Below are positions 10,605 to 62,522 of a stretch of 64,000 nt of DNA, piece after piece. The notes below the pieces were generated by a model that had not been told where the DNA came from, did no database searches, and saw only the letters and a program-made list of their open reading frames with translations. The position numbers and the translations under genes are program-made. This stretch comes from Sialis fuliginosa (Eukaryota > Arthropoda > Insecta > Megaloptera > Sialidae), in NCBI GenBank assembly GCA_961205875.1, contig OY540821.1:2728001-2792000 (forward strand), in the 5' to 3' direction. Each line of letters begins with the position of its first letter. Within the stretch, counting starts at the first letter, position 1.

Positions 10605-10668
10605 ATGGATATTGTTAAATATTTTATTTTGTTGTGTTTTACTCTCATTGGAGCAGGTGCATTTTCTC
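10605..10668 (+). CDS. Gene A exon 1 (signal peptide)
   Basis: 64 nt, from an ATG in context gtgagccATGg to a GTAAGT donor. It encodes MDIVKYF followed by a hydrophobic ILLCFTLIGAGAFS core, a typical secretion signal of about 19-21 residues. It ends in phase 1. The length equals exon 1 of gene B exactly. Confidence 0.82.
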
Positions 10669-19600: not shown

Positions 19601-22600
19601 ATATTTGTAGCTGATACCCAAATGAATCAATTGTAATTAAATACAATTTAACCAAAAAACACCCCTTCCAGCAGGGTGAATAAGCCATAAAATTGTTAAT
19701 GTTCGGTCCTAATTAGTAAAAATAGAATAACTCTGGGGGACATCATCGCACAGACTCGTATATTAGCTTAAATTCTTCCTAAAGCTCCAAAGAACAGAGA
19801 TCAACCATAATATAGCCAAATATGAATAGATGATATTAGCCAATATTAAGCAGCCTTGACTGTAGGTAAAATAAAATCTATCTCTATATACATATAAAAA
19901 TGAATGTTCGTTTGTATGAGGCTCAGTAACAACTAAACGGATTTTATTCCGGTTTTCACTAATGGATAGAGTATTTCACGAGGAAGATTTTGATTTATAA
20001 TTTGTGAATTTTAACCCGGGTAACACCGGGTCCAATACGCTAGTGTAAAATATTATGCATTGAGACTCCATCATAACTTATTTCAGTATTGGATTAAAAG
20101 GGGCTTATGTAGGGTGTTATTATTTTTTTTCAAATGAATATAGACATATGCGTATTAACTATGGAGTAATAGGGAATAGGAGTGGATAGTTTTTTTGAAA
20201 ATTTAGAATGTATCTAATTGTAAGAATAAGACATGTACATTTTGCAAGGAGATTTCATCATCTCATCATTAAAAAAAAGGGGGGGAGGGATATGGATGTA
20301 AAGGGGTACCTCTCCCATTTGGTATGGGGTAATTGGGAACTATGGGGTACCATAAAAATAACTAATATTTTTGTTTGTTAGTCGTTTGCAAATAATAATT
20401 TATATTGTCATAATATGTTTTTTTTTACTTTTTTATATTTTCTATACAATGTGTTCAGATATTATAATAATTTTTAGTAAAATTATTGATAAGGGGCCAT
20501 CCATAAATTACGTCACACGAATTTCACGATTTTTTTACCCCCCCCCCCGTTCTTGTCAAAGCTAGTCACATTTGTGAGACCCCCTCTCCCTATTGTGACG
20601 TCACATATTTTGTAATTTTACACCTTAAAATTATTTAAATGTTTAAAATGTTTACAAAAAGCTAGTATATTATATTTTGAAATGTGATGTCACGAAATTT
20701 AGGACCCCTTCCCACCCCTTGTCACACAATGTCACACTTCGTCGACTCCCCCCCCCCCCCTTAACGTGTGACGTAATTTATGGATGGCCCCTAATGATCA
20801 AATTATATTTATTATAATACAAATTATTTGTGTTTCAGAAATTGGGAGTCCAAACTGGGGCTATAGTAAGTATAAAATGGTATTTAAAAATGTCTTCTTT
20901 GGTGACATAGAGCTTTGGAACTATAACTTCTTACAATGAAAATCCGATTCAAATCGATTAAATTCATTGGTAAAAAATAATTAAAAAGTAATTAGTTAAA
21001 AATACTAAACTCAGATTTATATGGAAGAGGGGGGGGGGGGGGGGGGAGGAAGTGATTGATAAAAATAATTTGGCGATTTTCGTGGACGTATATGATACAT
21101 TTCTGACGTAAGCAAATTCGTATGATATTTTTTTCATATAAATAAAAACAATTTACTCGTAAAGTTTCACAAAACCACATTGTATTTTTCAATTAGGATT
21201 TTTAATTATTACCACAACAAAAAAATTATTTATGATGTTATTGTTCCAATAATTGGCACACTTGCACACATTTGATACCTAATTAAACATATATTTAATA
21301 AAGCATAAACTTATAACTTTATGTGCATTTTAACTTATCAGATCATTCAGAAGCTATAAAATACTTCCCGGGAAATTTCAGATCTGAAGTGATCTCGGTT
21401 GATCTTAATTTTGGAACAAATCAGATCTTTGTAGATAAATAAACTTTTGTCTACCTTAAATAACAAATACACATATATACTATATAGAAACCTTGTTTAT
21501 AATTTAATCAATTAAAAAAAATTGTACAGAAACGTATTGAATGATATTTGAGGCCCGTGTATTAAATTTATAAATAAATTCACAACTCACCCCCTGTCAC
21601 AGATGAAGGGTCATTCGATCCAGCGGGAAAAATACTTCGGGATACTAGGGATGTGGGGGGCAAAACAACCCTCTATCTAGCACAGGAGTCGAGATATTTA
21701 CGATTTTCTATAATGAATACCATAAGTAGCGAAACAGAGAAAAATTCACCTAGTATCTCGAAGTATTTTTCCCGCTGGATCGAATGAGACCAATTACAAC
21801 CCTTCATCTGTGACAGGGGGTGTGTTGTGAATTTATTTATTAATTTAATACACGGGCCTCAAATATCATTCAATATGTTTCTGTACAATTTTTTTTAATT
21901 GATTAAATTATAAACAAGGTTTCTATATAGTATATGTGTATTAATTTGTTATTTAAGGTAGACAAAAGTTTATGTATCTACAAAGATCTGATTTGTTCCA
22001 AAATGAAGATCAACCGGGATCACTTCAGATCTGAAATTTTTTCCCGGGTTATTACATACATATTTTTCTATTTTATTTTCACAGGTCCATTCCCAATAAC
22101 AGGCCTGTGTCCTAGTAACCAGGTTGTAAGAATGGGTTGTGTTTTGTGTATCTGTACACACGCAGGGTCTTTGAAATGGTGTACACGAGATCTTTGTAAA
22201 ATTGGTGAGTAAAATAAACTAATTTGTCATTTAACCCTTTAAACGCGACCATTTAGCGAAACACTTATTCCTAAAAATGTGTAAAATTTCCCTAGAATAA
22301 TCAAAGTGGTCAAAATTTTTGTTATTTTCATTTTCTTTACATTACAATTTCCACGGTGTTTTCGAGTCGTGCGTGGAAAGGGAAAAAATACAATAGACTT
22401 TTGTCGATTTTCGCGTCCAAAGGGTTAAAATTATGCCTTGACTCGAAATTGAAAAGAGAAAGAATCAAACTGATATGAAACGAAACTAACTTGGTTATTT
22501 AAACACTAAACTGGATAAAAAATTAAAATTACTTGAAATTGTAAAAAAAATATAAGCTACATACTAGTGATGTAACGAATATTCGCACATTTTTTAACAT

Positions 22601-25600
22601 TCGCATTCGCAAAAAAAGTGCGAATATTTTTGCGAATATTGCTCGTTTTTGTAATAATAAAAAAAATATTTTTTTTATCTTTTATATTAAATAATTATTT
22701 TTAAGAACTTAGGAACAGTCAATATTTATTTTTACTTCCATGTTCTGAAAGAAATGAAAGTATTGTAATACCGTCGAAAAATCGTGTACGAGATAAGAGC
22801 AGATTCTGATTGTACTAACTTCAAAAAGTTAAGAAAGGTTGATTTCCTCATGCCTGCTTTGCGTTTGTGTGTCTGGAGGTAGAATTTTCTTTCGTTCACG
22901 ATAACTACTGAAAAAATGCTCCGATTTGAATTATTTTTGGGGGAAATGTTTTTTATAGTAAGTACTCCAGCAAATTAAATAATACAATACGTTTGAAGAG
23001 GGGGGAAGGTATGGATCATGCTCCAACTCCTAAAAAAGTAATAAAATTAAAGCAAATTAAATAATTTTTTTAGGGTAGAAGGGATTATCAGAACCATGCT
23101 CCCCCCCCAAATTTTTTTTTTCAATTTAATACTTATTAATATTAAAATTTACAAAAACAAATTGTTGAGGGGGCTTTTAGGCCTTAATGCTCTTCTAAAA
23201 GTGAAAAAATATGAAAAATAAAATTTATAATAAAAAAAGTCAATATTCGCATTCGCATTCGCATTCGCGAATGTCGGACGCTAATATTCGCACTCGCATT
23301 CGCGAATGTTTAAAATCACACATTCGTTACATCACAATTACATACAGATATACAAGTTTTAAGGCTTCTTCGGTGATCTTAATATGGATCTTGGCTTCTG
23401 AATGTAGACCGCAACGGTTTGGTCATGTTATCGGCTAACGTTTTGTTACATATTGCAGTGGACATCTCCATGGCTCTTCTTTTAGAAGAGCCCTGAAGAT
23501 GTCCGTTAATAACATATGAAAATATATTCAGGTGCGTTTTAAGAAAAATTTCGAACTAATATTTTTAAATAAAATTGTATAAAAATTAAATGGTTAACTA
23601 ATTCCAAGTAATTTATATAAACACTATCGGTTTGTTGAATAATTAACTGCATTTGGTGAATTTAACACGAGGAAGCACTGTGCATTTACTTGGCAGATGT
23701 TTTTTTTTGTTAGTAGGATTTGTATTTGATAATAGTCATAACCATATTTTTCGTTTGTTGTAGATTGGAACCTGCCTTTTTTGCCTTACAGTAAGTACCC
23801 ATTAATAATTTTAATTATTATTTATAAATCAATTATTACTGTTTTCAGATTATCAGCCAATGGTGCATCCATATTTACCTCGTGAGTATTATACCAATTA
23901 TAAAATAATAAATGAACTAAACAAAGAAGTGTTAACAAAAATTAATGTATCAATTTGAGTCCTAGCCGCTGATTTCTCATAAATTTTACTGAAATTGACT
24001 TTTGTATCGCAAACGACGATATCATGAAACAAATACGTGTAGCCCTGATATATGTATATACATATATACATTTATACATACATATTTACATATATGTATA
24101 TCACATGAATATTATTGAGATAACGACATCGTTCTCAAATTTAAATCTTTATTAATAGCCTGACGATGATTCTGTGAATCGAAAGCTTGCGTTTACCTCT
24201 TCTTAAATAATTTTTTTTTGTTTAAGTTTGTTTTTATTTTTCTGTATATACCTATATATCTCTAAATAGTTACAAAGAAGACACTTTTATCGTAAAACAT
24301 GTTTAATATTTAATTTTTTGTGTTAAAATGTTGGCAGGCTGCTTATTAAAAAAAAGTTAAAATTTAATAATCGAGGACCTTTTTTTTTTCTCCTAGCTTA
24401 TAAAATGTTTATACTTTTTTTACTCACATACAAAATTTGTTTATATATCTATTGTAATTATTGTACAATATTATACGAATCTTTTCTTTTATATTTTACA
24501 ATATAATTAAAAAAAAAGAAAAAAATAACGATTCTTTTTTAAAATACTGACTCGAGTCGATTCGTTCACCGAAAAGAATCGTTCTAAAAGAAAACCAATC
24601 GTTCATGAATTACATATTACATATCTCTAATCCAGTGGTTCGTTACGCAGTAAGTAATTCAATCAACTGTTTAGGGCCCCGAGGTAAAAAAACCCATCCG
24701 ATATAAGTAAAAAAATTTTTTTTGTTCTCATAATTACTTGAAGAGGGGGGCCCGCAGGGGTTATTTTAAGAAAATTTTTCAACTACTTTTTTTTTTTTTT
24801 TGCCTTTTTGCTCTATACTTTGTATATTTCTCTTACAAATTATAGTGACCTTTTTTTTGTTCTACACTTACACTTTTTTTTATTTTCTTTCTACTTGCAA
24901 TTTATTCAACTACACAAATTAGCTTTCACAACTGCTGTTTTCATTTTTTGAACTGCAGAAACAAGCTATAACTACACACTAAAATAACCCCTGGGGGTCA
25001 AATATTAATTCAACCTGAGGCTTCACTGACTACATAACTCAGTATACTTCTATCGTAACCACCAAAAATTGTTTTTATTCTATAAAAAAACACCTTCTTC
25101 TGTAAAATGTTGCTTACGATATATTTCGGCGATTAGGGTTCGATATGGAAGATAAAATAAACAATATAAAATAGAAATATGTAACACAATTGTTACATAT
25201 TTATGCTTGCAAAAATTTTATGCATAATAAAAAAACGTATAATTTTTAAGTTAATAGGTTACAACTTTTACAAAGTAAAGTAGTCATAGACATAGAGAAT
25301 GGACCAGGCATCTGACTCGAACACAGAACCGTGTCAAAAGAAAGAGATAGAAACAGATTTGGAATAACTGTGTAACTCTATGTCTATGTTCCAAACTACA
25401 CTGCATCTCTCTCTCCTTTTTTGAACAGATGTTACACCATTGAGTTAATACAGAATACACTGTCCATTCTCTATGTCTATGAAAGTAGTTTATTTTCACA
25501 TTAGCATCGCCATCTATAAGTAATGAAATAAACCTTATCGCATAGACATAGAGAATGGACCAGGCATCTGACTCGAGAGCAGAGTCGTGTCAAAAGAAAG

Positions 25601-43345: not shown

Positions 43346-43398
43346 TATGGCAAAATCGAATTCAAACTATTGTGGTGTTGTAGAAAAACTTCACAAAA

Positions 43399-43462
43399 AT
43401 GAAGACCTTTGCATTAGTTTTGGTTTTATTTGCCATCTCAGTAAGAGCTCAACATTTCAGAG
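43399..43462 (+). CDS. Gene B exon 1 (signal peptide)
   Basis: 64 nt from ATG in context cacaaaaATGa to gtatgt. MKTFALVLVLFAISVRAQHFR is a clear cleavable signal, with likely cleavage after RA. Ends in phase 1 like gene A exon 1. Confidence 0.87.
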
Positions 43463-46400: not shown

Positions 46401-49400
46401 TATCCGTCTACGCCCAAAACCGAGTATAGCTGTTATCAGGGAACCCCCTTCTACAACATATTTCAATATGAAGAAAATCAGAAAGAACAAGTTAAAGGGT
46501 TCCCCTTGTCAGTAGTTTAACCTAGGGGGTGAAATAGGCAGCGCGCGACACACGGATGTTCGTGAAGTCCAGGGTCGGTGTGGCCAGTAGTTCTGTAGTG
46601 TTGGGATTATAACAAATAAGTATTTGAGTTTTATTATTTTTATTTCCATTTAAATGTATTATTAGCGACCGCTGTAAAAGTGTAGTTTGGTTGTTTTGGT
46701 TTTTTTAGTCTGTAAATAAATTGTACAGTTAGAGTAGACTCTGGGTAGTTTTCTTTAACAAAACAAAACCACACCTGTCCGGGTTCCCGTTCTCTTCACA
46801 ACATAGGGCATCCGGCTGGGTGGCTATAGCCAAGCCAGCCGAGCGGCTATCAGACCCACACAGTTGAGGGACCTACGAAAACCGGATTCGCCCTGTACCA
46901 ACTTTCCCCATCAACACTACCAAGGTACAAGCGGCCGGGGAGTAACAAATAATAAATAAATTTCAATTTTTTTCATTAAATAAATAATAAGATTGGGTTT
47001 GAGTATACTTCATTAGAAAGCTGAGAAAAAGGTGCACATTTCATGTTTGGGAATTTTTTTTATATCTTCATTAGAGATTGCAGTATTAGCGATTGAAAAA
47101 AGGTACTTTTTTACAAACATGGAATTAAAAAAAAAATTCCTCGAAAATTACGCGTATCATATTGAAATAAAAAAATATTTTTGACTGCTGAACCGTAAAA
47201 AAAATGTTTTACGGAAAAAAAATTTTGGTGGCAAATTTTGCGTGGAATGCCCCATACATTTAACATTTTAACTATCTTACAGCGTGATTTGGTGACAATC
47301 GGCCAGTAGGTGTCAAAATGGTGGACATTTAAATTAATTATTATTAGTATAATTTATTTATTAATTATTTATTATCAGAGCAACTGCTTTATATTGTTTC
47401 AAATTTGATGATTCTTTCATTTATATCTTTTGTGTCGTAGTACTTATTATTTTGTAATCATTAGCAAGTGTCCATCACTGCGTGCTCATTACTGGGTTTA
47501 CTTTATCCATTACTGGAGAAAAAATATGAACAAAATAAAAGGATATAATTTAAAAAACAAACTATATTTGCGGACTTATTATGAGTTAATGAAAATTATA
47601 AAAAACAAACCCATTAACCCCTTAACCTTACCTCTTTATTATATCATTTTAATTACCAAAGTCCGCAAATAAAGTTGTTTTTTAATTATAGCCTTTTATT
47701 TTGTCTTATGTTTTTTCTCAATTAATGGAGTTTATCCATAATGTAATGGACACTTGCTAATGATTACAAAATGATAAGTATTACTACATAAAAATTATAA
47801 AATAAAGAATCGTAAAATTGTAAACAATGTAAAGCAAATGATATGATAATATAATAATAAATAATATATAGATTACACTAATAATAATTGGTTTTAATGT
47901 CCACTATTTTGACACCCGTTGGCCGATTGTCATCAAATTTAACTGTTTTATAGTTAAGTGTCTATAGATTTTATATATTACTAGCTGGGCCCACGCGGCT
48001 TCGCTCGCGTAGACTACGGAATTATTGTTTAGGATTTTTGAAAAATATAGTTTAATTAATTAAGTACAAACACGATTAGTTATTATTGTAATAATAATTT
48101 ATCAATACCTAAATTACCTAACAAAAACGAATCAGAAGAAAAAAGTACAAATAATTTGTGTTCTGTTTAAATTTAAATGTTAATTATTGAAAACAAAATA
48201 AACACAAACGATCAGCCGAGGGACTCCGAATATCTACCGAGCGTACGCGAATCCAGTCTGATGTACTCGCTTCGATGCGGCACGATACCATACATTTAAG
48301 ATATTATCTTTATAAATATATTTTAAGATATTTTCTAAACTATACGACCAAATTGGATGCTGTAAATGGCAAACTATATCTACATTAAGTACTTATGACG
48401 ATGAAATCATTTATTTCGATAAGGATTAATGTTTTGCAGGTCATAAGTCCATGTAAACAAAACCCAAATATTTTATGTTTTCTTTGTAACATAAAAGCAG
48501 TCATTGTGGCTTAAATATAAAAGTTAGACATATCGTGTCGCTGACTTAATTGTAGAACTTTTGATTCTACACAATTCTTTAATACATTATTTTGTTCTAT
48601 ATTGAACGGTTTAGGCAGCGTATTACAAAACAGCGCGCCGACGGCAAAATTTTTTCCGACTTGATTTACTATTATCGTCACTGCTTTGTTGTTATGTTAC
48701 CTAACGTAAAAAAATATAGCCTATAACCTGGCCAGAGAACGTACCTATGAATTAAAAAAAAAAACTCGTAAATCGGATAAGTGGTTCTCGAGTGATAAGG
48801 TAACTAACGGACAGACAGACAGACAGACAGACAGACAGAGAGACGTTGAGCTTTATATATATTAAGGATTAAGGATGATTCAGTAATGGCAGTAATCAAA
48901 TATCAATAAATATTTCTAATTTAGTACATTAGATTAAACAAGTGTCCATTACTGGGGTACGATCCAAGATTGGTGACATTCCCTTATTTAGATAATATCA
49001 CTTACTTATTATTAGTCACATTAGCGGATAGGTGAATAAATTATTGATAATAATATTGTCGTTTCAGGCCAACCCGGTTATTGTACACCAAATCAGCAAT
49101 ATTATGAAACGTGTAACACATGCCACTGTAATGCAGATGGGACAAATGGAGCATGTACATTAATAGCCTGCGCGGGTACGTATTTATCATAGGGTTAACT
49201 GGGGTAAAAGTGAAACAAAATATAAATCTTTCATGTTTTATGACAGTTAACGATACAAATTTATACTTTAATTTTTTCTACTAGATGCGCTTATGAATAA
49301 CCATTTTAAATATTTACGTCATTTGAACTGTACGATACAACAAGTGTTTCATTTTTAACCTCTAATTTGGGAAAAAGTGAAACAGGTAAAGGAAAAAGTG

Positions 49401-52400
49401 AAACAGGCCTCTAATGGAAAATATTTATCGAAAAATTAAAAGAAAAGCTACAAAGGCAACTTTGATTTATCTTCTTTGTGGCGTATCAATGTGAAATTGT
49501 AACTTTAATTAATATCTGAGCTATACAGAAAGTTATGTGTAAAGAATTAAAACTTAATTCACACGTTTTGACATCGAATAACAGGGAAATCTGTAGGGAT
49601 GACACATCACTTATGTCGCGTCAATGAATACATAAAACAGGCAAAATTCATAAGTCCTCAAGAACAGCTCCGATTTTGATGATTTTTTTGTTTAGTTTTG
49701 TTTTTATATTATTTAAAATCAGAAACCTTTAGGAACGGGGACCCCCGGGAAAGACACACAAAAAAATAAAAACAAAAAACTTGACAGCCGCTTATGTTTA
49801 AATCATCGATGCAGCGAAAACGATGTGTGCTAGAGCAAAACTGAACAGGACCCATTTGATAGAGAATGAAATTTCCTATAAAAAATAATAAAGTTCATAT
49901 CTCTAAAGTTAATAATTATTGAGTGATGGTCGTCGAAAATCTCATGACTAAAATGTAATTTTTGAAAATGTCACTTTATGTCCCGATCAGCTGTAAAAAG
50001 GAATATTGCTATTTAACGATTAATAAAACATTTCAAAAAATTCACTGTTTAACTATATAGGAGTTATTTATGGGTTCAAAAATGGTTTCCACTTTGAATT
50101 GTAACTATAGGAGCTACATCAAGAGAAAAACTAAAAAAAAAATCATCAAAATCGGAGCTGTTCTTGAGGACTTCGAGCCAAAAGGCTTCGTTGACGCGAC
50201 TATTATTAGGCGATTCATATTTTCAAGTCGCTTTAACAAACCTTTAATGATGTCAGTTTTTATAATTCTCCTATAACCAAATTGGTTTTTTAGTTGCAAG
50301 CTTGTTTCAACTTTTATCCCATTTTTTTGGTGTTTCATATTTACCACGCTCGACCCTACTTTTAACCCTTTACCTCATATAGTTTAGAAAAGTATTCCTA
50401 TTTTTTCACTACATTATGTTTTTAGTACTATTGATAAGAAATTTATTATTGAAAATATAAATAATATATTTTTATTTTCTTATTTTAATTTTCTTTTCTT
50501 TTTTTTCTTTTCCTCCTATCATAATTAATGTAGTAAAAGGTTTAAAAGAACCCAGACTAGAGACAGGTTATTTATTGCTCGCGTAGAAGAATAAAATTTC
50601 AATTATAAAAATGTACAAATTAGTACGACTGATAAGAGACTTATTATTGATAAAATTATTTTTATTTTCCTCCTATCATAGTTCATGCAGTAAAGGGTTT
50701 AAAGATATACATATGTATGTTAGAGACAGGTTCCTTCTTGCATGCAAGAATGAAATTTCTATTATACTCGTATAAATATACTAGCTGGACCCGCGCGGCT
50801 TCGCTCGCGTGGACTACGGAATTATTATTTAGGATAAAAAAATATAGTTGAATTAAGTACAAACACGATTAGTTATTATTGTAATAAAAACCAAACAACA
50901 CTTAAATTACCTAACAAAAACGAATCAGAACAAAAAGTAAAAATAATTTTTGTTCTGTTTGGATTTAAAAGTAAATAAATAACCAATTGACGTTCAACGC
51001 AAGGAACGCATTGCTCCTTCCTTATCGCACGACGCGACATGGGTCTCCGCGCGAATATTATGTTCCCGTATGTACATTTCAGTTATTTATTTAGACCAAA
51101 TCGGATGCAGAACAGAACCCAAATATTTTTAATTTTCTTTGTAACATAAAAGCAGTCATTGTGGCTTAAATATAAAAGTTAGACATATGGTATCCCGGAC
51201 TTTATTTTAGATCTTTTGATTCTAGACAGTTCTTTACTAGATTATTTTGTTCAATATTTAACGGTTTAGGCAGCATATTGCAAAAGAACGCGCCGGCGGC
51301 AAACTTTTTTCCGACTTGATTTACTATTATTGTCACTGCTTAGTTGTTATGTTACCTAACGTAACAAAATATAGCCTATAACCTGGCGAGAGAACGTACC
51401 TATGAATTAAAAAAAACACGTAAATCGGATAAGTGGTTCTCGAGTGATAAGCGCACTAACGGACAGACAGACAGACACACAGACAGAGACACGTTGAACT
51501 TTATATATATAGATAAACTATCAAAATCATGTAGGGAACAATTAGTTTAGTAGTTTTTAAAAATCTAACACAGTTTAGATAGTTTTTATATTTTATTGTT
51601 AATTATAATATGATAAATAACGCGAGCGAAACCGCGAATAAAGTGTTGATTTATAATAGAAATAATAGCATATTTATATGTATTTAAAAATTTTCTTAAT
51701 TTTCAGTCCAGATTTTGGCTTTAAAAATTTAATTTTTCTCAAAATTACACCATTTCTAATATTTTGTTTAAATATTTTAGAATTTGGAAGCCCGGGTTAT
51801 TGTATTCCACGGACACATTTCTTCGACAATTGTAACAGCTGCACTTGCTCAAACGATGGGACCACAGCTTCGTGTACCAGAATGGTGTGTCCCGATGACA
51901 AATATATAGATAGTTATGGAAAAAATGGTAAGTACCTTGGACATTTATGGGGGGATGGAGGTCAAAATTTAAGAGGGAAAGCCATATATTTATAAAATAT
52001 TTTTTTCCGATAACCCATCCTAAAATTTTGATGGGACAGTAGTGAAAAATATATTTTTTTGGTTGTCACAACGAGGCTCATAACTTTGTAAATTTTTAAT
52101 ATTTTTCAATAAAAATTGGTATTGTATAAATTGAATATACAGGGTAGTCCGGTTTGGGATACAGATATTTTAGGGGCTGACCACCTGGGTCAATATGAGT
52201 AAAAATTGTAATGGAAAGGGTGGTCTATCTTCAAGACCCTCTGAGGTATACAGGATGTTTAAAAACTTCCTTCAAACAAAGATTATCTCATAACTTCCAA
52301 AGTAACGTAACTAGAGCAACCACAATGAGTCAGTCTCATAGGTAATTAACTAACGTATTTTTCAGTATTAACGTTATTGCTACCCGTGTTTCCAGTTCAG

Positions 52401-55400
52401 AGTTATTGCTCATCAAAATAAAAAAATATTTCTATTTTTTTGAAATTTATTATGAAAATGACATTTTCCCCCAAAAGTATCATAATGTTACCTATAAATT
52501 CATTATACAAAGTTTGAACCTGGGTCTTAAAGTTTTCCAGTTATAACTGTATCTAAATAATCCCCAAAGTGACTATTTTGCTACCTATATTAAATGAAAC
52601 AGTCATAATTTTTTTTGTCTACATAGTTTTATTGTTAATGTTAATTTACATAATTTTAAAACTAATGTAAAAAATTCCCAAACATTGACAATTTTTTGAC
52701 CTGTCAAATTGGATTTCCTCTTTAAGGCCACTGTACTGACAAACTGAACTTTAATTTTAGCTAAAAATGTGCAAACGTTGCTCAAAATAGCTGAAGATTT
52801 CATGGAATTTCTTCATACAGATTTAGTTGGACGATGTAAGTATTGGAATATTATAAAAAATATTGAATTTTTTTTAACGAATACAATTAATTTACTTCTG
52901 TAGGCTTTCGTGGCCGTTGTCCATAGTAGCTAACTTTTCGGGCTGTTTTCCACGTTGTCGTATTTTTACACTTAGCAGTCTTCTTCAGAAGTGATTCTTC
53001 ACTTCTGAAGAAGACTCCGACATGAGAGTCGAAACGTCAAGTGTAAAAATACGACAACGTGGAAAACAGCCCGAAAAGTTAGCTAGAACAATTAATTTAA
53101 TTGTGGTATCAAACAGCGGCGTAACTATACCATCTGAGGCCCGTGGCAAATCCATCGGACGGGGCCCCGTCACAAACAACTAATTATTGAACATTAAAAT
53201 TTATTTGCAACAATTGAAAATTTTACTATTGATTGTTGCCAAAAATTGTATAAATTTTAAAATATAGTAGATTTTATTTATGTATAACAATTACGTGTAG
53301 TTGTATACGTCAATAATTGACGTACCTATACAAATCAAAGCTTAATCTTTCTACTTCTTAAATTTTAAGTTATAAAAGTTATAAGATAATCGACGAAAAA
53401 ATATTTAAATACCCCTGTCCGCGCAATCACCGCGGGAAGCGAATTTTATTTGTTAATGAAAAAATAAAAAAATAATTAAATGTGTAAGAAAAGTAGGCGC
53501 TGAATTTCTTCGAAATTTTTTTACTGTCCCATGCAAGTCTTTAAAGTTAAAAAAAAATTGTTTTACTACAATTTTTTTCCATTCTACCAACCGTAATTAT
53601 TTTATATTCAGAAAAATCTTAATTAATAAATAATTCAGTTTTTTTTTATTACAAACTTTTCATAAACATTTTTTTAAATATTTTTCTTGAATGTAGTATT
53701 TTTTTCGGCTTGAATCAAGTATATGCTTATTTCAAGATAATTTTTTACTTGTTTCAAGAACAAAATTAGAGTTAATTTATAGCATATCGCAAAAATCCCG
53801 AAAATATACTAAACTAGCTGCTACCCGCGACTTCGCTCGCGTGGATTTCGAAACCCTTCATATGTGACAGGGGGTAAAATATTAAATTTATCTTATTTTT
53901 AGTTTTCTTTAATTATACAAAATCGTAAATGTGTCGGCTCCTATGCGAGATAGAGGGGTTTTTCCGCCCTAAAACCCCCGCCCCCGTGGTATTTTTCCCG
54001 CTGGATCGAATAAAACCACTTACAACCCTTCATATGTAACGGGTAAAATATTAATTACTAAAAAAAATTAAAAATTTTCCTCTCCCTTGCAATTCCTTAG
54101 GGGTTGAATTTTCGAGATACGAAATAGCCTTAATCCGTCCTCGGGATGTAAGCTATCTCACTGCCAAATTTCATCAAAATCGGTAAAGCAGTTTAGTCGT
54201 GAACAGGTAACAAATAGACAGACTGAGAGATACACTTTCGCATTTATAATATAAGTCGCGACTCCTATGTAAGATAAGGGGTTGTTTTGTCCCCCTAATA
54301 ATCCCTCTTCCGTAGTATTTTTGCCCGCCAGATCGAATGTAATCAATTACAACTCTTCATATGTGACAGGGGGTAAAATATAAAAATTTTCTTATTTTTA
54401 GTTTTCTTTCATTATACAAAATCGTAAATATCTCGGCTCCTATGCGAGATAGAGGGTTGTTTTGCCCCCTAAAACCTACGCCCCCGTGGTATTTTTCCCG
54501 CCGGATCGAATAAAACCACTTACAACCCTTCATGTGTATCGGGGGGTAAAATAATAATTACTAAAAAAAAATAAAAAATTTCCACCCCCTTGCAATTTCT
54601 TAGGGGTTGAATTTTTAAGATACGAAATAGCCTATGTCCGTCCTCGGGATGCAAGCTATCTCACTGCCAAATTTCATCAAAATCGGTAAAGCGGTTTAGC
54701 CGTGAAAAGGTAACAAACAGAAAACAGACAGACAAACACACTTTCGCATTTATAATATTAGTATGGATATCGTAAAATGTCCAAATATTACTTTACTTAA
54801 TATTTTATTAACTAATTAAAATTTGAACAATAAAACTTAAATTTTTCGAAAAATTGTTCATTCGAAGAATTTTGATTAAAAAAATTGTGATTCGAAAAAT
54901 TGTGTTTCGAAAAATTTACACCAAACCTAATAATTAATTTCGATATTTTACCTTTCATAGAAGTGAAATGTTTCTTCATATTTAAATTTTCAATCAATAT
55001 AGGCATTTCAAAATATTTAATTGTTAATATGTGTCAAAAATCATTTAATTGTTCGACAAAATATTTTAAAGAGACATAATCATAGTAACCTAAATTAATA
55101 AAATAAAATATTGAAACCGTAAATTATAAAATTCCGTATTCCATGGCTAGGTACTATGTTTTTATATACCTAAATTATAACATACCTGGTTAAATTATTT
55201 CTATATCGTCCCCTCCAAGGCAAAGTATCGTAAGATACACTTTTTGCGAAATTGAGTTATCGATTCTAAAAATCTCATATATAAGCGACAAAATTCTCTT
55301 TTCCGCTAAAAAATCTGTTAAAACTTTTATCGTATTCCTCCAGACAATGTATTCTAAGCACCGATATCTGTTTTAAGAAATATCGTAACCAACAATAATA

Positions 55401-58400
55401 TAGTATCGTAACCAGTGACGTAGCTAGCCCTGAGTGGATCCTGACTGGCCTATATGGTAGGTACTTTCCCGCGACGGAATAATATAGTGCTGTGACGGAG
55501 TGCTTTCTTATTTATTCATTAGAGCTGGGCTTTTATCAATTTTAATTTTATTAATTTTAAGATATTTTAGAAAAATCGTACCTGTTAAAACTTTATTGCA
55601 CAAACTAAATATGGTTTATCTATGAGGTTTTTTCAATATATTTTTTACCCTCAATAACTCAATTTGGTTGATATTGAAGTATGATGTAGAACAGTGCTTC
55701 CTAAACTTTTCCTACGACAGAACACTTCACAAATCCTGAAATTTTAATGGAACGTCTTGGTTATTTTGTAAGTAATATATAAAATAAGGAAAAAAGTAAA
55801 TTTAAATCAGTCAAGCATGTTTGAACTTCTCGCAGCATTTAAAAACATTGAATATTAACTTTGATATTTTTTACGCTTAAACTGATAAGACATACGTTAT
55901 ATATCGTAGTACAGGTATTCCTCGACTTACAACCGAGATAGGTTTCTAAACATCGATCGTAAATAGAATAAGTTGTAAGTTAACACGTACAATATGTACA
56001 TATTTTTGCTTTGGACGTTTTCCTTGATGTGAAGCGAATCGCATTTTCTATACATAACAAACAGTTGCGGGTTCCCAAAAATATCTACATAAATAATAAT
56101 AAATTACATTTTTGGGAAATTCCCGGAACTGTTTGTTTCATTTATGTAATATGTGCATGTAAGAAAGAGACAAAGACAATTATAAGTCGAGGATTACCTG
56201 TATATTTGTTTACGATGCGTTTTCAACTCTTGTCGTATGAAAATATATTGCATACTAAATACATATTATGACATTTGTTTCTGATATGACAACGACAAAA
56301 AATTATTTTATGACTTCTGGTACATGTATTGTATTACATCATGTACTTACATGATTTGAACATTTTATGAATATTAAAAATAATTTCATTTTTGGTTTTT
56401 CTGCTCGTGTCTTTCAAAAATTCATCAATGTGTCTATATAAATACATTATTAGCTCTTGTAGATACTCGTACACCCTTTGTACAATTAATTAATTAATTA
56501 CAATCAAATATAGGTCTTGTCAATTGAATGAAGCTTTCGTAACAATTTGCAATAAATCAACATCTTGTTTTAATTTTGTAAATGTACATTTTAGGTTAGT
56601 ACATTGGGTAAAGATGACAGATATACAGTTTCAAACAACAATTAAAATAATATCATTTAAAATTACAATGTTAATTTGAAATTATATAAATTCTTCTGAT
56701 ATTTATGATTACAAATAAATATAATAAAATACCTATACCTATGAAAGTAAAAATATTGATAATTCAATGACTTAAGATTTAAAAAATGTCATTATATACC
56801 TACTTAATTTTTATTTGTACCGGGAACACATATCTATCGCCGAATGTTGGTCGAATTGTGTCCGAATGCTGTAATTATTTGTCTTCAATTTTTTTGTCAA
56901 ATTTATTTATGAAAATTAAATTATTTATTACATTAGAGTTGTGCATATTTTTTCGTTCGTTATGCTCTTTATATTTCTTTTTTGTTATATTTTATTGTTC
57001 ACTTCAAAATTTTAAATGGCCACTGACATTTAAAATTTTTAAAAATAATCAATAAAATATAATGTATCCATAGTTACGACATTTGCAATTAATTTAGTAA
57101 ATGCTTAAAGCGCATTATATGTAAACGTATTTTGTTTATTTTCTCCTCTTTAACATATCTTTTTCAAAAATCAGACACGGGTTCATGGTTGCCAATTAAC
57201 CAAAGTATTTGAAAAAAATTAAAAAAATCTAATATCGGTTTTCGTTTTGATACTTTTTTACATCAAAACTTTTTTTTTCCTTTTTTTTTCATTTTTTTTA
57301 AATCTGAAATTTGAACCTTACATTATATCACCCAAGGAATATAAAAAAAATAATAAAAAAATTCTAACTTTTTTTTTGAAAAATTGGGGGCCCCTTGTCA
57401 CCCCATTTATGAACTTTTTCAAAAAAGGCCCACTAGTTGTTATTTTTTACCCCCAAGGAATATATATACCAAATTTCAAGGTTCTCCGATGAGTGGAAAT
57501 GGTCAAAAAAATGATTATCAGTGAGTCAGGGCACTTCATTATATATAGTAGATTCAAGAATACTTTTCTGACAGTGTACCTAAGTTAAATTTATTAAATT
57601 CATAATTAATAAATTTTACAAAATTTCGTAATAAATGTTAGGTTCCTCCTTTTCTCATGGCCTCTCGGGCCAGGGGCCCCCTCAGGCCGGGGGCCCGTGG
57701 CATTTTGCCCGCTCTGCCACCCTATTGTTACGCCACTGGTATCAAACTTATTGACGATTGACAGTTTAACGCATGCTTGTTAAATAAAAATCAAAGGTAT
57801 TAAAACAGTTAGATAATTTTAATTTAATTATTGACAATATAAATTTTCTTAAAAAAAACAAGATTGGATATCACAAAGGAGCTGTAAGAAGAGGAAGAAA
57901 TGCAGCTGACAAGAAATCTATTTATAAAAAAAAAATTCTTTAATATAAAAATTTTTATATAAATTATTAAATACGTTTTTTTTTTATAGTTGAAGAACAT
58001 TCAAATGAATTAGCAGGTAAATAATTTTCACAGCCTGTTTTTAAATTGTAAGTCAAAACTTTAATTATAATATTCCAACAATATAATTTTAAATTTTGGA
58101 ATAATAGGGAGGGGTGTAATAGAATTTTTAATTTTAATTTTCATATCTAGGCATGTGGTATGTCAAAATGTACATCTTAATTAGTAGAACATGACCATAT
58201 TTTTTATTTTTATTCTAACTCAAAAATGGCGCCTGTAGGGGGCTAAAAGCAGTATTTTATTTTGTCCCCCCCCTCTAACTCTATAACTACTGGCTCAATA
58301 AATCTGAAAAAAATTTGGTAACGAGGTTTTGGTGGGACTACCAACGACAAATACTAAAGTCAACAATATAATATTAAATTTTGGAATTATAGGGAGGGGC

Positions 58401-61400
58401 GTCATAATTTTTTTTATTTTGATATCTAGGCAAGTGGGGTGTCAAAATATAGATCTCAATTAGTAGAACTTGACACTTTTTTATATTTTAACTTTAATTT
58501 AAAAATGCACCTGTAAGTGGTTCCAAACATTTCACGTAGTACGTACTTCGGAACCCTTATGACATACACTCGTGTATGTCTTGCCCGAATTATTTAAAAA
58601 CAAAAAAAATGATAATTTTTCATTCAGATTTTACTGAGTTATTTCTGGTATTTTTTATCTTTTATTTCTCTCGCCTTTGTTGCTCTCTTTTGTGATAAAA
58701 TATTAACAATATAATTCTTAGATGAAAGAGAAAATTTATCTGAAGAAGTCCATGAAGAGGAATTGGAAACTGAAGAAGAAAATAATGAACATTTGGAACC
58801 AGAATTATCTGAAGAACAAGGTAAAACTTATATCTGATTATATGTTAGATCAACCTGTTAATATTTGCGATCTAATTTTCAATCACAATTCTCATCGCAC
58901 CCCCCCCCCCTTCACCCCCTCACAATAATTTTATTAAACCTTATTTCGAAAAACTTTGCTCTCCAAGACAGGCTCAAGGGAGTCACTAAGAATTATTATT
59001 AATCTCGTTTTTAATTTAATATTGATAAGTTAATTATCAATTACATTGTGCAGTACTGATATCTTTATATCATTGTAAATGTAAAAGTGTATATTGCTTC
59101 CTCGCAATATTGAAGATACGAGAAGCTATGTGATCGTTTTATTTTTTATTATGTCAGAATGTATTTTATTGGTTCCCTTCAGTAAATAATTTTTTTAATA
59201 ATAATAAGTATTTGTTCTCATTTTTTCTCGATATGCTCGCGTCCCCCATTAAGTTTTAATACAAACATTTATTTAACAATATTTTTTTAGCGGAAGTAGA
59301 GGAAGAAGAACCGGAAAACGAATCGGAAGACGAAGTTGATTCGGATCCAGGTAAATATCAATAACTCTTATTTATTCTTGTCTTCTTTGTTTAAATCGCG
59401 TTATTCCAGTAGTTTTTTACAGCAATCATTTTTTGATGAACTCGAAACTTTAATCAAGATAATGCTTAAACCAAGTTGACAAGAATGGTTCTTTTTATCG
59501 ATAATTTATTGACTTGTGTTGATTTATTTGCAGAACTACAGTCAGCTAGACAATTAAGTAACTTACGTAAGTTTTTTTTAAATTACTTAATTACTTAAAG
59601 GGGAATTTAGGGGATCTCCCGGGGGCTGGAATAATTTTAAAATGCAATAACAATGATTATTTTAAAGTTATTTTTACTAATATATTAGTTTTTTTTTAAT
59701 TACTTCTAAAAATGGTTCTCCCGGGGTCTGGAATAATTTAAAAAATGTATTAAAAAATTTATTCAATAAAATTGATTTTTCTATACATTATTTATTGTGA
59801 CTAATTAAACTTATTTTTTTATAGTGCTCTAAACAAAGTACCCTTACGTATTATATATGTATATATGTATTATATATTTTCTAATCAGAGCCGGACTAAG
59901 CATTTTCTGAAATAAAACAATCATAAAATTATAAAAAATTGATAATCCCTTAAAAACCCACCTTATTCTGGCTCTACGTTTATATTTTTTAATGCATAAA
60001 AAAACATTTTATTTATTTTTATTTTACAGAATCGATTCAACCAAAATGTAAGTACTTTTAAATACAGTTATTCTTCCATTTACACCATTAATTAGTTCCA
60101 TGAAAACAGTGCGTAAATGGAAAATTAGAAAATGTTCCATTACATTATGTTTTTTAAGTTTTTTCAAACTTTTTAGAATCCGCGTAAATGAAGTGATTAT
60201 AATTATAATTATAATTTTTAAAATAAAATATGTATCCTGGCGCTGTCTTTTTCGTTAAAAGGACCCCGCTGTTTTTGATAAGGAAATGGCTTTTAGTCAA
60301 TCTCTTTGAAACCAACTGGAAAATATTCTCTAAATCATCCCGATTAAAAGTCTCAATGGTCGCAACCGCCTAAGTTCCCGAGGTCTCGCGCAAAAATCTG
60401 TTTTGTACCTAATACTGCAATAAAAAAATCAATATAGTACAGGATTTCCCAAGTTCAATATTTAATTTATTATAACAAATGGAAGAAAACTTTAAATACA
60501 AAAGTCGTCAGGCTAGACAAGCAGCATATTTTTAAAATAGTTACATTTATATAAGGTGTCCCATAAGTGTGTTACAAATCAAAGTTATATTTTTATGACA
60601 ACTGATTTTCTATTGTTTTTATTTTATAATTTAATATTTTTAATACTATCGCTAGTAGCTGGCGCTGACGGCACTACACATACCTTAACATGTTTTATAA
60701 AAACTTTATTATAATCCATAAAACAATTTGCTAGAACTTGCAAACTTTAACAACATAAAAATCTAGAAATTAAATAAACAAAACGATACATAAAAATTAA
60801 TTTCTTTGTTCAAAATGTCCTGTACTATATCGATTTTTTTTATTGAATTTTTAGGTACAAAACAGCTCTTTGCGCGAGACCTCGGGAACTTAGGCGGTTA
60901 CGACCATTGAGACTTTTAATCGGGATGATTTAGAGAATATTTTCCAGTTGGTTTCAAAGAGATTGACTGAAAGCCATTACCCTATCAAAAACTGCGGAGT
61001 CCTTTGTACAATGATAATTAATATTTATTTCCTACTAATGGATCTTAGATTCTGGGTGTAAGCCGCACCAATTTAGCCATGTTATCGGCCAACGTTTCGT
61101 CACACATTACAGTGGACATCTTCAGGGCTGATAACACAACCAAATCGACTCGACTTACACTCAGAAGCCAAGATGCATATTAAAATCACCGCGAAAGCCC
61201 CAAGACTTGTCTGACCTACTGACATTTTTTTAATATGTCGTTTAGAAGGTATAATATAACTATTTTATTATATTTTAGTGAAGGGAGTTTTGCAAAATGC
61301 TGGCCCTATTTTACGTAAGTAAATTTTTTGTTCTTATTCTTTTTTTATATAATTTCTTAAATCTTAACCAGACTAATATTGTGTCATAAAAATATTCAAA

Positions 61401-62522
61401 ATTGAAAGTAAAAAAGTTCAATTTTCAAGGTATGGGGGGGGGGGGAGGTTAGGTGTTTCGATTTATAACTTGTCGATTTTAAGAGGTTTCACTGTAACAT
61501 TTAAAATGTAAATAACAAACAGAAAATTTTGATTTGTACATAAAAAATGCTTCAACAGCCCAATGAAAATTTTCCTTAGTCTGGTTTTTCATATACAGGG
61601 TGACTGTAAACATACCGACAAACTTTCAGAAATTGTAGAGGACATCAATAAAATTGCTTTTAATACATGATTTTATGTTTATATTTATTTTTATTTTTTA
61701 TCTCTTAAACGGTCCACTTTTAGAAAAATTAGCAAAGAATAAATAGTGTTTTGAATTAGTGAATTAATACAAAATACATTTTTTGGTTGAATACTTTTTT
61801 ATAAAATTAATAAATGTTATAAAAATTCTAAAAAAAATATTTCTTTACATTATCTGAATAATTCTAAGAACTTTTCAACTTTTGCAAAGTTTCTAAAAAT
61901 TTATCCTTCAGATGATAAACATAAATATAGAATGTGGGTGCCCTCTGGAGCAGAAATTATGAATTTTTGTAGGTTTCACCCATTACAACATTTGATCAGA
62001 ATAATTTGAACTATAATTTCCCCAAGTTATAAAAAATTTAAACCAAAAAGTAAAAATCCATTGCTTTTGTGCGGATACATTTCTTTTGCTCTACTGCTAA
62101 AACGGCTCGTTTGCGGACATGGGTTTATTAACAAAAACCGATTGTTTTAATGTCCGTGATAACTCCTGAAAGTTTATCGGTATGTTTATGGGACACTCTG
62201 TATATTATATAATGTATTTTAAATATTTTAATACAAACTAAAAATTTTGTCTTATTCTATTTTACAGAAGCAATAAAACCTAAATGTAAGTATTATATTT
62301 AACGTTATATACATAAAATAAATAAAAATAAAAGATCTTTCTACACTTAACTTTATAAAAAATATGTAAACTGCTTTTTTTAGAGGTAGGGTACAAAAAT
62401 ATGAAAATTCTTATTTGTTTCATATTTCTAAGTTAAGCCATTTTAGAAGACATAAAAACTGACTCTATATTATTATTATATTTTAGTGAAGGGAGTTTTG
62501 CAAAATGCTGGCCCTATTTTAC
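43399..62522 (+). CDS. Gene B: secreted two-module pacifastin protein with acidic microexon tail (3' end outside window)
   Basis: Exons 43399-43462, 49068-49175, 51781-51927, 52761-52835, 57990-58016, 58722-58820, 59291-59350, 59534-59566, 60030-60047, 61279-61314, 62268-62285, 62487-62522 and probably more downstream; at least 240 aa. Seen: signal peptide (1-21); two pacifastin modules (C27-C56 and C65-C94), both with Cys2-Asn-x-Cys3, a Gly and C-T-x3-C; then a short amphipathic segment, a Glu/Asp-rich region (about 141-196), and a repeated 18+36-nt exon pair. All introns are phase 1 and every internal exon is a multiple of 3. By family knowledge the presumed P1 residues are Leu53 and Arg91, suggesting chymotrypsin-like and trypsin-like targets. 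Same layout and 64-nt first exon as gene A, so a tandem paralog. No stop is seen; one alternative stop exists at 59830. Confidence 0.86.
45379..46947. mobile_element. LTR-like insertion (possible solo LTR)
   Basis: Starts TGTAAC, ends GTAACA, interrupts a foldback arm, much more GC-rich than its surroundings, with aataaa near 46715. No clear target duplication. It contains a Helitron-like start (45689) and a nested foldback (45972-46515). Confidence 0.45.
46272..46317 (-). repeat. tRNA-like fragment (SINE head or tRNA relic)
   Basis: On the minus strand tggcttagcggtaatg resembles an A box and gcgttcgattccca a B box, about 40 bases apart. Too short and unpaired for a working tRNA gene. Confidence 0.4.
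47620..48985 (-). mobile_element. MITE family A copy 8, with nested repeat
   Basis: Reverse orientation, joined head-to-head with copy 7. Interrupted by 47982-48868. Confidence 0.6.
47982..48868 (+). mobile_element. Retroposon-like repeat ending in gacagacagaca
   Basis: Begins actagctgggcccacgcggc, ends in a (gaca)n run and ctttatatatatta. Same family as 50781-51515. No ORF; class unresolved (SINE- or RTE-tail-like). Confidence 0.6.
49068..49175 (+). CDS. Gene B exon 2: pacifastin module 1
   Basis: 108 nt between gtttcag and gtacgt, phase 1-1. Canonical core CNTCHCNADGT, cysteines 27, 37, 40, 42, 51, 56, ending CTLIAC. A repeat homologous to 1333-1920 starts about 20 bases after the donor. 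Confidence 0.92.
49195..50360 (-). mobile_element. Full-length copy of the 1333-1923 element
   Basis: Opposite orientation to 1333-1923; about 1.17 kb with the ends ggggtaaaagtgaaac and tttcatatttaccacgctcg. Opposed shadow frames at 50070-50347. Confidence 0.7.
50781..51515 (+). mobile_element. Second copy of the gacagaca-tailed repeat
   Basis: Shares tactagctgg, cgcgcggcttcgctcgcgt, ttatgttacctaacgtaa and the gacagacagaca tail with 47982-48868; internally shorter. Confidence 0.6.
51781..51927 (+). CDS. Gene B exon 3: pacifastin module 2
   Basis: 147 nt between atattttag and gtaagt, phase 1-1. Core CNSCTCSNDGT, cysteines 65, 75, 78, 80, 89, 94, ending CTRMVC. A 12-residue tail, PDDKYIDSYGKN, follows. 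An in-frame upstream extension of this exon is open, but the splice acceptor and the conserved phase favour this start. Both modules are preceded by G-Y and share PGYC, so one module-exon duplicated. Confidence 0.92.
52138..52665. mobile_element. Partial copy of the 3283-5078 foldback
   Basis: tatacagggtagtccggttt and following text match the left arm. The right arm is absent; gene B exon 4 lies about 95 bases downstream. Confidence 0.6.
52761..52835 (+). CDS. Gene B exon 4 (75 nt)
   Basis: Flanked by taattttag and gtaagt; phase 1-1. AKNVQTLLKIAEDFMEFLH and what follows (residues 107-131) looks like one amphipathic helix without cysteines. It sits between two repeats. Confidence 0.7.
52927..53085. 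mobile_element. Small palindromic MITE
   Basis: Arms of about 50 bp, tagctaacttttcgggctgt and inverse, around a loop containing gaagaagactccgacatgag and gtcgaaacgtc. Confidence 0.75.
53811..54768 (+). repeat. Retroposon-like tail with two 480-bp units
   Basis: catatgtgacagggggtaaa and following text recur near 53870 and 54360; both units share aaatttcatcaaaatcggta and an acagacag-type end, typical of insect non-LTR 3' regions. Confidence 0.6.
54769..55911. other. Interior of the hAT-like element, nothing supported
   Basis: Near 55411 agtgacgtagctagccc resembles another hAT-type left end. No ORF with coding character. Confidence 0.4.
55912..56204. mobile_element. Mariner-like MITE
   Basis: acaggtattcctcgacttac at the left, gtcgaggattacctgta inverted at the right, flanked by TA-type sequence. 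The 86-codon frame here is a shadow. Confidence 0.6.
56205..57690. other. Interior of the hAT-like element, nothing supported
   Basis: AT-rich. 57240-57550 has a repeat tail (gtgagtcagggcacttcatt) common to insect repeats. Frames at 56786 and 57247 are low-complexity shadows. Confidence 0.4.
57990..58016 (+). CDS. Gene B exon 5 (27-nt microexon)
   Basis: Flanked by tttttatag and gtaaat; reads FEEHSNELA, phase 1-1. The preceding 5.2-kb intron is mostly one hAT-like element. Confidence 0.65.
58095..58590 (-). mobile_element. Inverted, shorter copy of the 16985-18054 element
   Basis: acactcgtgtatgtcttgcc at the right end and gggaggggcgtcata internally match. Lies in gene B intron 5. Confidence 0.65.
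58722..58820 (+). CDS. Gene B exon 6 (acidic)
   Basis: 99 nt between attcttag and gtaaaa, phase 1-1. Residues 141-173 are dominated by Glu in a repeating E-E-x-L-E pattern. Low complexity, probably a helical or disordered acidic segment. Confidence 0.78.
59291..59350 (+). CDS. Gene B exon 7 (acidic)
   Basis: 60 nt between tttttttag and gtaaat, phase 1-1. Residues 174-193 read AEVEEEEPENESEDEVDSDP; with exon 6 they form a strongly acidic block of more than 50 residues. Confidence 0.8.
59534..59566 (+). CDS. Gene B exon 8 (33-nt microexon)
   Basis: Flanked by tatttgcag and gtaagt; reads ELQSARQLSNL, phase 1-1. Confidence 0.75.
60030..60047 (+). CDS. Gene B exon 9 (18-nt microexon, copy 1 of repeat pair)
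   Basis: Flanked by attttacag and gtaagt; reads QSIQPK, phase 1-1. Too short to call alone, but the near-copy at 62268 with identical splice context makes it credible. Confidence 0.65.
60260..61003. mobile_element. Foldback with nested family E repeat
   Basis: cccgaggtctcgcgcaaa near 60375 and its inverse near 60878; arms about 190 bp. The family E block (60440-60590) and a further AT-rich stretch lie between. Confidence 0.7.
61040..61209. repeat. Repeat family B copy
   Basis: Contains ttctgggtgtaagccgca, gttatcggccaacgtttcgt and an inverted cacccagaagcc-type end. Confidence 0.6.
61279..61314 (+). CDS. Gene B exon 10 (36-nt microexon, copy 1)
   Basis: Flanked by tatattttag and gtaagt; reads LKGVLQNAGPIL, phase 1-1. 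Identical in sequence to exon 12, 1208 bases downstream, and the flanking intron sequence is also nearly identical. Confidence 0.8.
61593..62207. mobile_element. MITE with accgacaaactttcag ends, copy 1
   Basis: cataccgacaaactttcag at the left and ctgaaagtttatcggtatg at the right. A second copy starts near 63244 and runs out of the window (opens gtgaacataccgacaaac). Confidence 0.7.
62268..62285 (+). CDS. Gene B exon 11 (18-nt microexon, copy 2)
   Basis: Flanked by attttacag and gtaagt; reads QAIKPK, differing from exon 9 at two residues. Phase 1-1. Confidence 0.65.
62487..62522 (+). CDS. Gene B exon 12 (36-nt microexon, copy 2; last seen in window)
   Basis: Identical to exon 10 in nucleotide sequence, with the same tattttag acceptor and gtaagt donor. 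The protein continues past the window. Confidence 0.8.

Follow-up and report, generated by a model that had tools for sequence, protein, structure and literature searches.

Predicted phase-1 microexon genes for pacifastin-like proteins in Sialis fuliginosa

A stretch of 64,000 nucleotides from the megalopteran insect Sialis fuliginosa (assembly GCA_961205875.1, contig OY540821.1, here C13, positions 2728001-2792000), referred to as the window, contains two genes, A and B, which combine exons for six-cysteine pacifastin-like domains (PLDs) with many short exons, all of them bounded by phase-1 introns. We consider A and B, which lie next to each other and appear to be intact, to be divergent members of a pacifastin family that has expanded. 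They are predicted to encode secreted serine-protease inhibitors with linkers made from phase-1 microexons, and we assign a probability of about 0.7 to this reading. Exon chains that read open and close at a stop, signal-peptide-like first exons, PLD homology, a cassette duplication and a rule for joining the predicted exons are all shown by the sequence. The exon junctions are throughout predicted from DNA. The numbering of the window is extended into downstream genome DNA, which was fetched to close gene B beyond the window end, and the genome searched comprises 392 Mb in 20 contigs.

Phase-1 exons and the two gene models

Gene A (10605-37109, + strand) has 16 coding exons, 15 introns and a single stop (TAA), and codes for 290 aa beginning with the ATG of its signal-peptide exon at 10605. 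Gene B (43399-81062, + strand) has 25 exons, 24 introns and a single stop, and codes for 434 aa. Twelve exons of gene B are within the window, the last of them ending at 62522, and thirteen more follow in the downstream DNA, where the gene is closed by a terminal 95-nt exon encoding a third PLD, with TAG after the last Cys and AATAAA downstream. A sequence-only reading made earlier had placed the genes between 10605 and 62522, and these positions proved to be the gene A ATG and the final base of gene B exon 12.

The same reading had stated that every intron is in phase 1 and that internal exons are 18-147 nt long and multiples of 3. This holds for all 39 predicted introns (15 in gene A, 24 in gene B) and all 37 internal exons (14 and 23), which uniformly start at codon position 2. 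Most internal exons are small (25 of 37 with at most 51 nt, 16 of 37 with at most 36 nt). All 37 read open in phase 1, whereas phases 0 and 2 leave 13 and 15 of them open, respectively. For the 25 internal exons within the window (14 and 11) the corresponding numbers are 25, 8 and 8, while equal-length random intron segments (2000 draws) averaged 9.1 open of 25 and never exceeded 17.

Because the exons had first been chosen by eye for phase 1, a score-only test was run, in which acceptor-donor pairs were picked by their intron-side score alone, using hand-set weights. On the + strand (10605-62540) this resulted in 45 pairs, 30 with a length that is a multiple of 3 and 15 representing open symmetric phase-1 exons; phases 0 and 2 had 5 and 10 open pairs, respectively. 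The gene models already contained fourteen of the 15 phase-1 exons, and the remaining one (27275-27349, +) was rejected as a poly-Phe region of low complexity. The - strand gave 21 pairs, of which 6 were multiples of 3 and 1 was an open phase-1 exon; averages over 20 first-order resamples were 17.9 pairs, 5.9 multiples of 3 and 0.7 open. The strict splice-site thresholds are passed by 14 of the 25 internal model exons in the window, the other 11 having at least one site below. In addition, an 18-nt exon near 64095 had been predicted before the downstream DNA was fetched, since the repeat in gene B implied a further copy, and an exon of this length was indeed found at 64095-64112. The phase-1 microexon observation is real and stronger than the earlier reader could show.

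Microexon genes of this kind largely escape simple searches for open reading frames (ORFs) or in six frames. The only stop-to-stop ORF of at least 110 aa in the window (28603-29019) is located inside a gene A intron, and a six-frame family search caught two of the five PLDs. Scans of the window with Rfam (gathering threshold) and for tRNAs gave no match.

The exons of gene A are as follows.

Exon 1, 10605..10668, +, start codon and signal peptide MDIVKYFILLCFTLIGAGAFS with a hydrophobic stretch; phase-1 donor gtaagt
Exon 2, 20839..20865, +, 27 nt, IGSPNWGY
Exon 3, 22085..22204, +, 120 nt, pacifastin domain 1 (A-PLD1), six Cys, R at the presumed P1 position
Exon 4, 23764..23790, +, 27 nt
Exon 5, 23849..23881, +, 33 nt
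Exon 6, 26994..27089, +, 96 nt, Pro/Val-rich linker
Exon 7, 28036..28071, +, 36 nt
Exon 8, 29040..29084, +, 45 nt, carries RRK, the sole dibasic run of gene A
Exon 9, 29346..29393, +, 48 nt
Exon 10, 30506..30631, +, 126 nt, pacifastin domain 2 (A-PLD2), six Cys, D at the presumed P1 position
Exon 11, 33743..33787, +, 45 nt
Exon 12, 34390..34422, +, 33 nt
Exon 13, 36386..36433, +, 48 nt
Exon 14, 36803..36841, +, 39 nt
Exon 15, 36939..36995, +, 57 nt, weakest acceptor score among the models
Exon 16 (terminal), 37081..37109, +, SFKGVLFR and TAA stop

The exons of gene B are as follows (window numbering).

Exon 1, 43399..43462, +, start codon and signal peptide MKTFALVLVLFAISVRAQHFR
Exon 2, 49068..49175, +, 108 nt, pacifastin domain 1 (B-PLD1), strict signature, L at the presumed P1 position; Pfam 40.6 bits
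Exon 3, 51781..51927, +, 147 nt, pacifastin domain 2 (B-PLD2) and tail, strict signature, R at the presumed P1 position; Pfam 42.1 bits; PDB 1kio, E 7e-7
Exon 4, 52761..52835, +, 75 nt
Exon 5, 57990..58016, +, 27 nt
Exon 6, 58722..58820, +, 99 nt, acidic, weak donor
Exon 7, 59291..59350, +, 60 nt, acidic
Exon 8, 59534..59566, +, 33 nt
Exon 9, 60030..60047, +, 18 nt, SIQPK, first half of cassette copy 1, class aa...t
Exon 10, 61279..61314, +, 36 nt, KGVLQNAGPIL, second half of cassette copy 1, class tg...c
Exon 11, 62268..62285, +, 18 nt, AIKPK, cassette copy 2
Exon 12, 62487..62522, +, 36 nt, identical to exon 10, last exon inside the window
Exons past the window, 64095-64112, 64314-64352, 64648-64665, 64773-64811, +
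Exons past the window, continued, 64898-64969, 66001-66036, 66123-66182, 69668-69703, 69812-69868, +
Exons past the window, last, 71889-71930, 74590-74640, 80146-80166 and terminal 80968-81062, +

Signal peptides were called by hydrophobicity only. Two of five signal-peptide-like first exons were used; the one at 38238 sits in a repeat and was dropped, and no exon chain was seen after the one at 61159-61225 (-). TATA-like boxes occur at 10554 and 43340, 51 and 59 nt 5' of the start codons of gene A and gene B, but this is weak evidence as TATAWA occurs 263 times on the + strand.

Pacifastin domains and related regions in the genome

Protein A has two and protein B three PLDs. Each is encoded completely by one exon, which is of phase 1-1 or, for B-PLD3, a phase-1 terminal exon. 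Outside the PLDs the only Cys is residue 11 of protein A, within the signal peptide. The strict pacifastin signature (C-x9-12-C-N-x-C-x-C-x2-3-G-x3-6-C-T-x3-C) is found in two of the five PLDs, B-PLD1 and B-PLD2, and therefore in protein B and not in protein A. These two domains also score above the curated cut-off of the Pfam family PF05375 (27.9 bits) with 40.6 and 42.1 bits. When the assembled proteins were searched with this model, as the sequence-only reading had proposed, protein B was found with 69.4 bits, while protein A remained below the cut-off with 20.5 bits. In a PDB search, protein B matches the SGPI, LCMI and PMP-C chains, which are solved locust inhibitors (best E 7e-7). For A-PLD1 and A-PLD2, AF2 models were computed from an alignment comprising those four PLDs that lie in the window. 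They are of moderate confidence (mean pLDDT 73) and show beta-strands arising from single exons, and solved pacifastins or their engineered variants occupy ranks 1-22 and 1-15 when they are compared to the PDB by Foldseek. The pacifastin label is right, firmly so for protein B and more weakly for protein A, and the earlier description of both as predicted secreted pacifastin-like proteins with a signal-peptide-like first exon can be retained with this gradation. PLD scans of bacterial/archaeal and of viral contigs gave 91 and 63 pattern matches, none of which was confirmed.

As presumed P1 position we take, following the locust inhibitors, the second residue after the fifth Cys. At this position A-PLD1 has R and A-PLD2 has D, while B-PLD1, B-PLD2 and B-PLD3 have L, R and D, respectively. 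The last PLD of each protein (30506-30631 in the window; 8968-9062 in locus L010) thus carries Asp at a place where R or L is found in the others. PMC2689174 locates the pacifastin reactive site only to the stretch between the last two Cys.

A genome search with PF05375 (E up to 1e-3) gave 30 matches, 27 of them on C13. Two represent B-PLD1 and B-PLD2, while A-PLD1, A-PLD2 and B-PLD3 are absent from the list. Six-Cys motifs were counted with a non-greedy pattern in six fetched PLD regions and the extended window, which resulted in 169 motifs on the coding and none on the opposite strand. As many as 133 are in C13:5648982-5701693 (- strand, about 53 kb, loci L018-L023), mostly with one motif per exon of about 102-138 nt and with visible duplications of multi-exon blocks. 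When splice sites in this array are picked by score alone, 113 of 124 scorable exons are of phase 1-1 and 11 are not, while 9 have no site above threshold; four rows share an exon end with a neighbour, and with a greedier pattern the figure was 110 of 123. On the 5' side of 108 of the 133 motifs there is a signal-peptide-like ORF with a weak donor (5688366). The array possibly represents one or two giant inhibitor genes; the largest pacifastin gene named in PMC2689174 (2009) has 42 domains.

PLD exons of phase 1-1 are also prevalent elsewhere: 10 of 12 at C13 8.35 Mb (5 unscored), 3 of 4 at 16.28 Mb (4 unscored), 2 of 2 at 15.39 Mb (1 unscored) and 1 of 1 on C10 (1 unscored), with a single unscored one on C6. 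Taken together, 129 of 143 scorable PLD exons in the six other regions are of phase 1-1, with 21 more unscored. Within the fetched DNA, B-PLD1 and B-PLD2 are matched best by sequences of the 8.35 Mb region (47-57% identical). The class 1-1 PLD exon is thus the rule in the expanded clusters, and what sets A and B apart from the examined PLD exons are their microexons without a PLD. Since class 1-1 is the ordinary form of the PLD exon, it is the microexon linkers that are the unusual part of genes A and B, and the idea that an inhibitor family had adopted this exon logic from nothing is not supported.

Collagen-like (Gly-Pro-Pro) symmetric phase-1 exons adjoin signal-peptide exons at C13:8364464-8364321 (-) and C13:15393529-15393705 (+). 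The signal peptide at 15393247 resembles, by eye, those at 15395871 and 15398998 near pacifastin exons.

The gene B cassette and alternative explanations

In gene B the acidic exons 6-7 and one further exon are followed by a cassette that consists of an 18-nt exon and a 36- or 39-nt exon and occurs in four tandem copies. The 18-nt exons code for SIQPK, AIKPK, SVKPK and KVQPK in copies 1-4, the longer ones twice for KGVLQNAGPIL and then for KRVLKKAAPVLK and VGVLKKTAPLLQ; the exon length differs by 3 nt between copies 1-2 and copies 3-4. Similarity between copies extends into the introns. The segment 61261..61428 (+), which holds exon 10, is duplicated at 62468-62631, which holds exon 12, with 94.7% identity including intron; the two exons are identical in sequence, as is much of the adjoining intron. 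Exon 11 with its flank is 94% identical to the next 18-nt copy. For this reason, the array has most likely grown by duplication of DNA blocks comprising exon plus intron. The same inverted-end repeat is found after exon 10 (61576-62205) and after exon 12 (63226-64000), with pieces 84-90% identical, and it thus probably predates the cassette duplication.

A simple rule governs the junctions. All four 18-nt exons begin with aa and end with t, and all four longer exons begin with tg and end with c. Alternate joining results in the codons TTG and CAA, while two 18-nt exons joined directly produce TAA, so that the unit of the cassette is the pair. It had been proposed that every exon is free to be skipped, added or duplicated. 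This is correct for the reading frame, which is always kept, but stops are created in gene B by 3 of 23 single-exon skips (exons 10, 12 and 14, each giving TAA) and by 17 of 300 forward joins; there are none in gene A (0 of 14 and 0 of 120). As shuffling of junction ends with the real joins kept open gives a mean of 1.7 stop-making skips versus the 3 observed, we make no claim of selection on these stops.

Other repeats were noted around the genes. Between A and B there are two arrays of a 151-bp tandem repeat in opposite orientation (38448-40119 with 11.1 copies, 40887-41693 with 5.4 copies), which sit inside apparent long inverted ends near 38170 and 41850. By eye, a large palindrome with a CCGGGTGTTCCAGACCACCC-like end is seen in the first intron of gene A (15190-16385), and a related end occurs also in the last intron of gene B (L010 near 8250). 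An inverted copy (91% over 523 bp) connects 16979-17493 in the first intron of gene A with 58076-58596 in the fifth intron of gene B.

If A and B are inhibitor genes as proposed, they would be transcribed and their proteins secreted, and each PLD would inhibit a serine protease by means of the exposed loop flanked by its last two Cys. Judged by the residue at the presumed P1 position, A-PLD1 and B-PLD2 (both R) may act on trypsin-like proteases and B-PLD1 (L) on a chymotrypsin-like one. In the gene models, phase-1 exons, most of them microexons, encode the segments that connect and follow the PLDs. Since every intron is in phase 1, duplicated intron-bounded blocks can add sequence without a frameshift, and the microexon linkers, which are probably spacers or secondary binding stretches, could change fast because their exons are frame-neutral. 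More tentatively, and with the odds somewhat against it, we propose that this insect lineage has turned the class 1-1 inhibitor module into an exon-building system, with a 133-PLD array on the one hand and separate microexon genes with paired-use cassettes on the other.

Several observations weigh against our interpretation. Both gene models and their junctions are predictions, and some splice sites in them are weak (acceptor of gene A exon 15 with a score of 0.15, donor of gene B exon 6 with 1.0). A-PLD1, A-PLD2 and B-PLD3 depart from the strict signature, yet keep all six Cys, and are below the PF05375 cut-off (17.2, 20.4 and 18.6 bits). The Foldseek E-values are 0.16 or weaker, none being 0.001 or below, and the alignment from which the gene A models were computed contained the gene B PLDs. 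No relative was found in searches with the whole protein A, the 240-aa in-window part of protein B and the PLD alignment. The 5' end is a further point. A hydrophobic ORF starting with ATG at 20784 (20784-20865) runs in frame into exon 2 of gene A and uses the same donor; it may be an alternative first exon, so that the exon at 10605 may not be the sole or true one, or else it is possibly a chance reading of the pyrimidine-rich acceptor region. As the first introns are long (10.2 kb in gene A, 5.6 kb in gene B), an extra 5' exon could also have been missed.

One alternative is that the symmetric exons mainly serve to produce many protein variants per gene by alternative splicing, as in the microexon genes (MEGs) of schistosomes. 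Single skips are frame-neutral and open in 14 of 14 cases in gene A and in 20 of 23 in gene B, variants have been seen for MEGs (PMC5825161), and alternative splicing is known in insect pacifastin genes (PMC2689174). However, three skips in gene B make TAA, and the shuffling result indicates that these are neither clearly selected for nor against. Furthermore, 20 of the 27 window donors have a score of at least 3.3 on the hand-set scale, which suggests, though it does not show, constitutive use. On our analysis, we regard this explanation as unlikely.

It is a little less likely that the proteins are effectors injected from saliva or glands by a plant- or animal-feeding insect, convergent with the bicycle and KQY/KHI proteins of aphids, with the PLD as scaffold and the microexon linkers as the fast-evolving active part. 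Signal peptide, many microexons, a large gene for a small protein and the bicycle-type exon phase would all fit, as would the precedent of KQY1a, which has 37 exons over 45.7 kb and belongs to a family with isoforms that is found in saliva (PMC7495047). Pacifastins are also mentioned for lacewing venom (PMC12758981) and, as cited in PMC5921304, for the saliva transcriptome of a triatomine. With the published coefficients of the bicycle classifier (PMC9168663, cut-off 0.72), which we applied to both gene models, gene B scores 0.891, but gene A only 0.44. In addition, the CYC motif of bicycle proteins is absent, there is no Cys outside the PLDs except that in the signal peptide of protein A, and no homologue emerged from the protein and PLD-alignment searches.

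Less probable again is a role in extracellular matrix, silk or egg coat, with the PLDs protecting a structural protein of which the acidic stretch and the cassette of protein B are the structural part. The acidic exons 6-7 followed by a four-copy cassette, the collagen-like phase-1 exons in two other PLD regions and the listing of a pacifastin-domain protein among caddisfly silk proteins (PMC11092239) are in line with this, but no Pfam family reaches its cut-off with the non-PLD parts of gene B. Misreading of chance sequence, or of decaying gene fragments, as exons could account for the low Pfam scores of three PLDs and for some weak splice sites, but this already disfavoured view is very improbable in light of the frame and splice-site tests, the blind prediction of the exon at 64095 and the full closure of both genes.

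Comparison with known systems

Insect pacifastin genes are described as having a signal-peptide first exon, PLDs in single exons, clustered paralogues and exon duplication (PMC2689174). Genes A and B, with their signal-peptide exon 1 and whole-exon six-Cys PLDs, resemble these precursor genes in each of these respects. The precursor genes described there have, however, far fewer exons (eight in the exceptional nvpp-1) with one or more PLDs per exon (PMC2689174), whereas gene A comprises 16 and gene B 25, the majority lacking a PLD. Dibasic pairs, reported in most insect precursors (PMC2689174), are few: gene A has one run (RRK) and gene B five pairs, of which three fall within the cassettes, another in a later linker and the last inside B-PLD3. 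The word "phase" does not occur in the main text of PMC2689174. Trichoplax tapp-1, with 88 exons and 42 PLDs the most complex pacifastin gene described in 2009 (PMC2689174), is likewise a many-exon pacifastin gene with a signal-peptide exon, but it splits each PLD over two exons, whereas A and B keep it in one.

In the bicycle genes of aphids almost all internal exons start at codon position 2 (PMC9168663). The likeness to these genes, which the sequence-only reading had pointed out, is confirmed for the signal peptide, the many small internal exons and their phase. It does not extend to the proteins, which, judged against the published descriptions of bicycle genes, lack the CYC motif and have PLDs in place of saposin-like folds. 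As the CYC motifs are absent, we do not file A and B as bicycle genes and consider the gene structure alone to be what is common. It follows that a classifier that relies on structure only can label a pacifastin gene as a bicycle gene (0.89 for gene B).

The KQY/KHI cassette effectors share with A and B a large gene for a small secreted protein and many miniature exons (PMC7495047). In KQY1a, 33 of 37 exons have at most 15 bp, whereas the smallest exon here has 18 nt, and no inhibitor domain is mentioned for KQY/KHI in the passages of PMC7495047 that were consulted. Schistosome MEGs have about 80% of their coding sequence in symmetric exons of 6-36 bp, with secreted products and demonstrated variants (PMC5825161). 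Genes A and B are similar in their predicted secreted products and short symmetric exons but, with only 16 of 37 internal exons of at most 36 nt, stay short of the figure of about 80%.

A literature search returned no publication joining pacifastin with microexons among the matches listed. The suggestion of an undescribed family is thus to be divided: the domain family, PF05375, is already known, while a phase-1 microexon architecture for pacifastin was not found in print among these matches. Apart from the signal sequence, bicycle proteins resemble no known domain at the sequence level (PMC13041983), which makes the origin of microexon effector genes hard to trace. Here, the microexon structure comes with an inhibitor domain that can be recognised, so that both ancestry and cassette growth can be followed. 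If the more tentative proposal of an exon-building system is correct, the architecture of aphid and schistosome effectors would represent a general way, evolved repeatedly, of arriving at secreted proteins that change fast, reached in this case from a recognisable ancestor.

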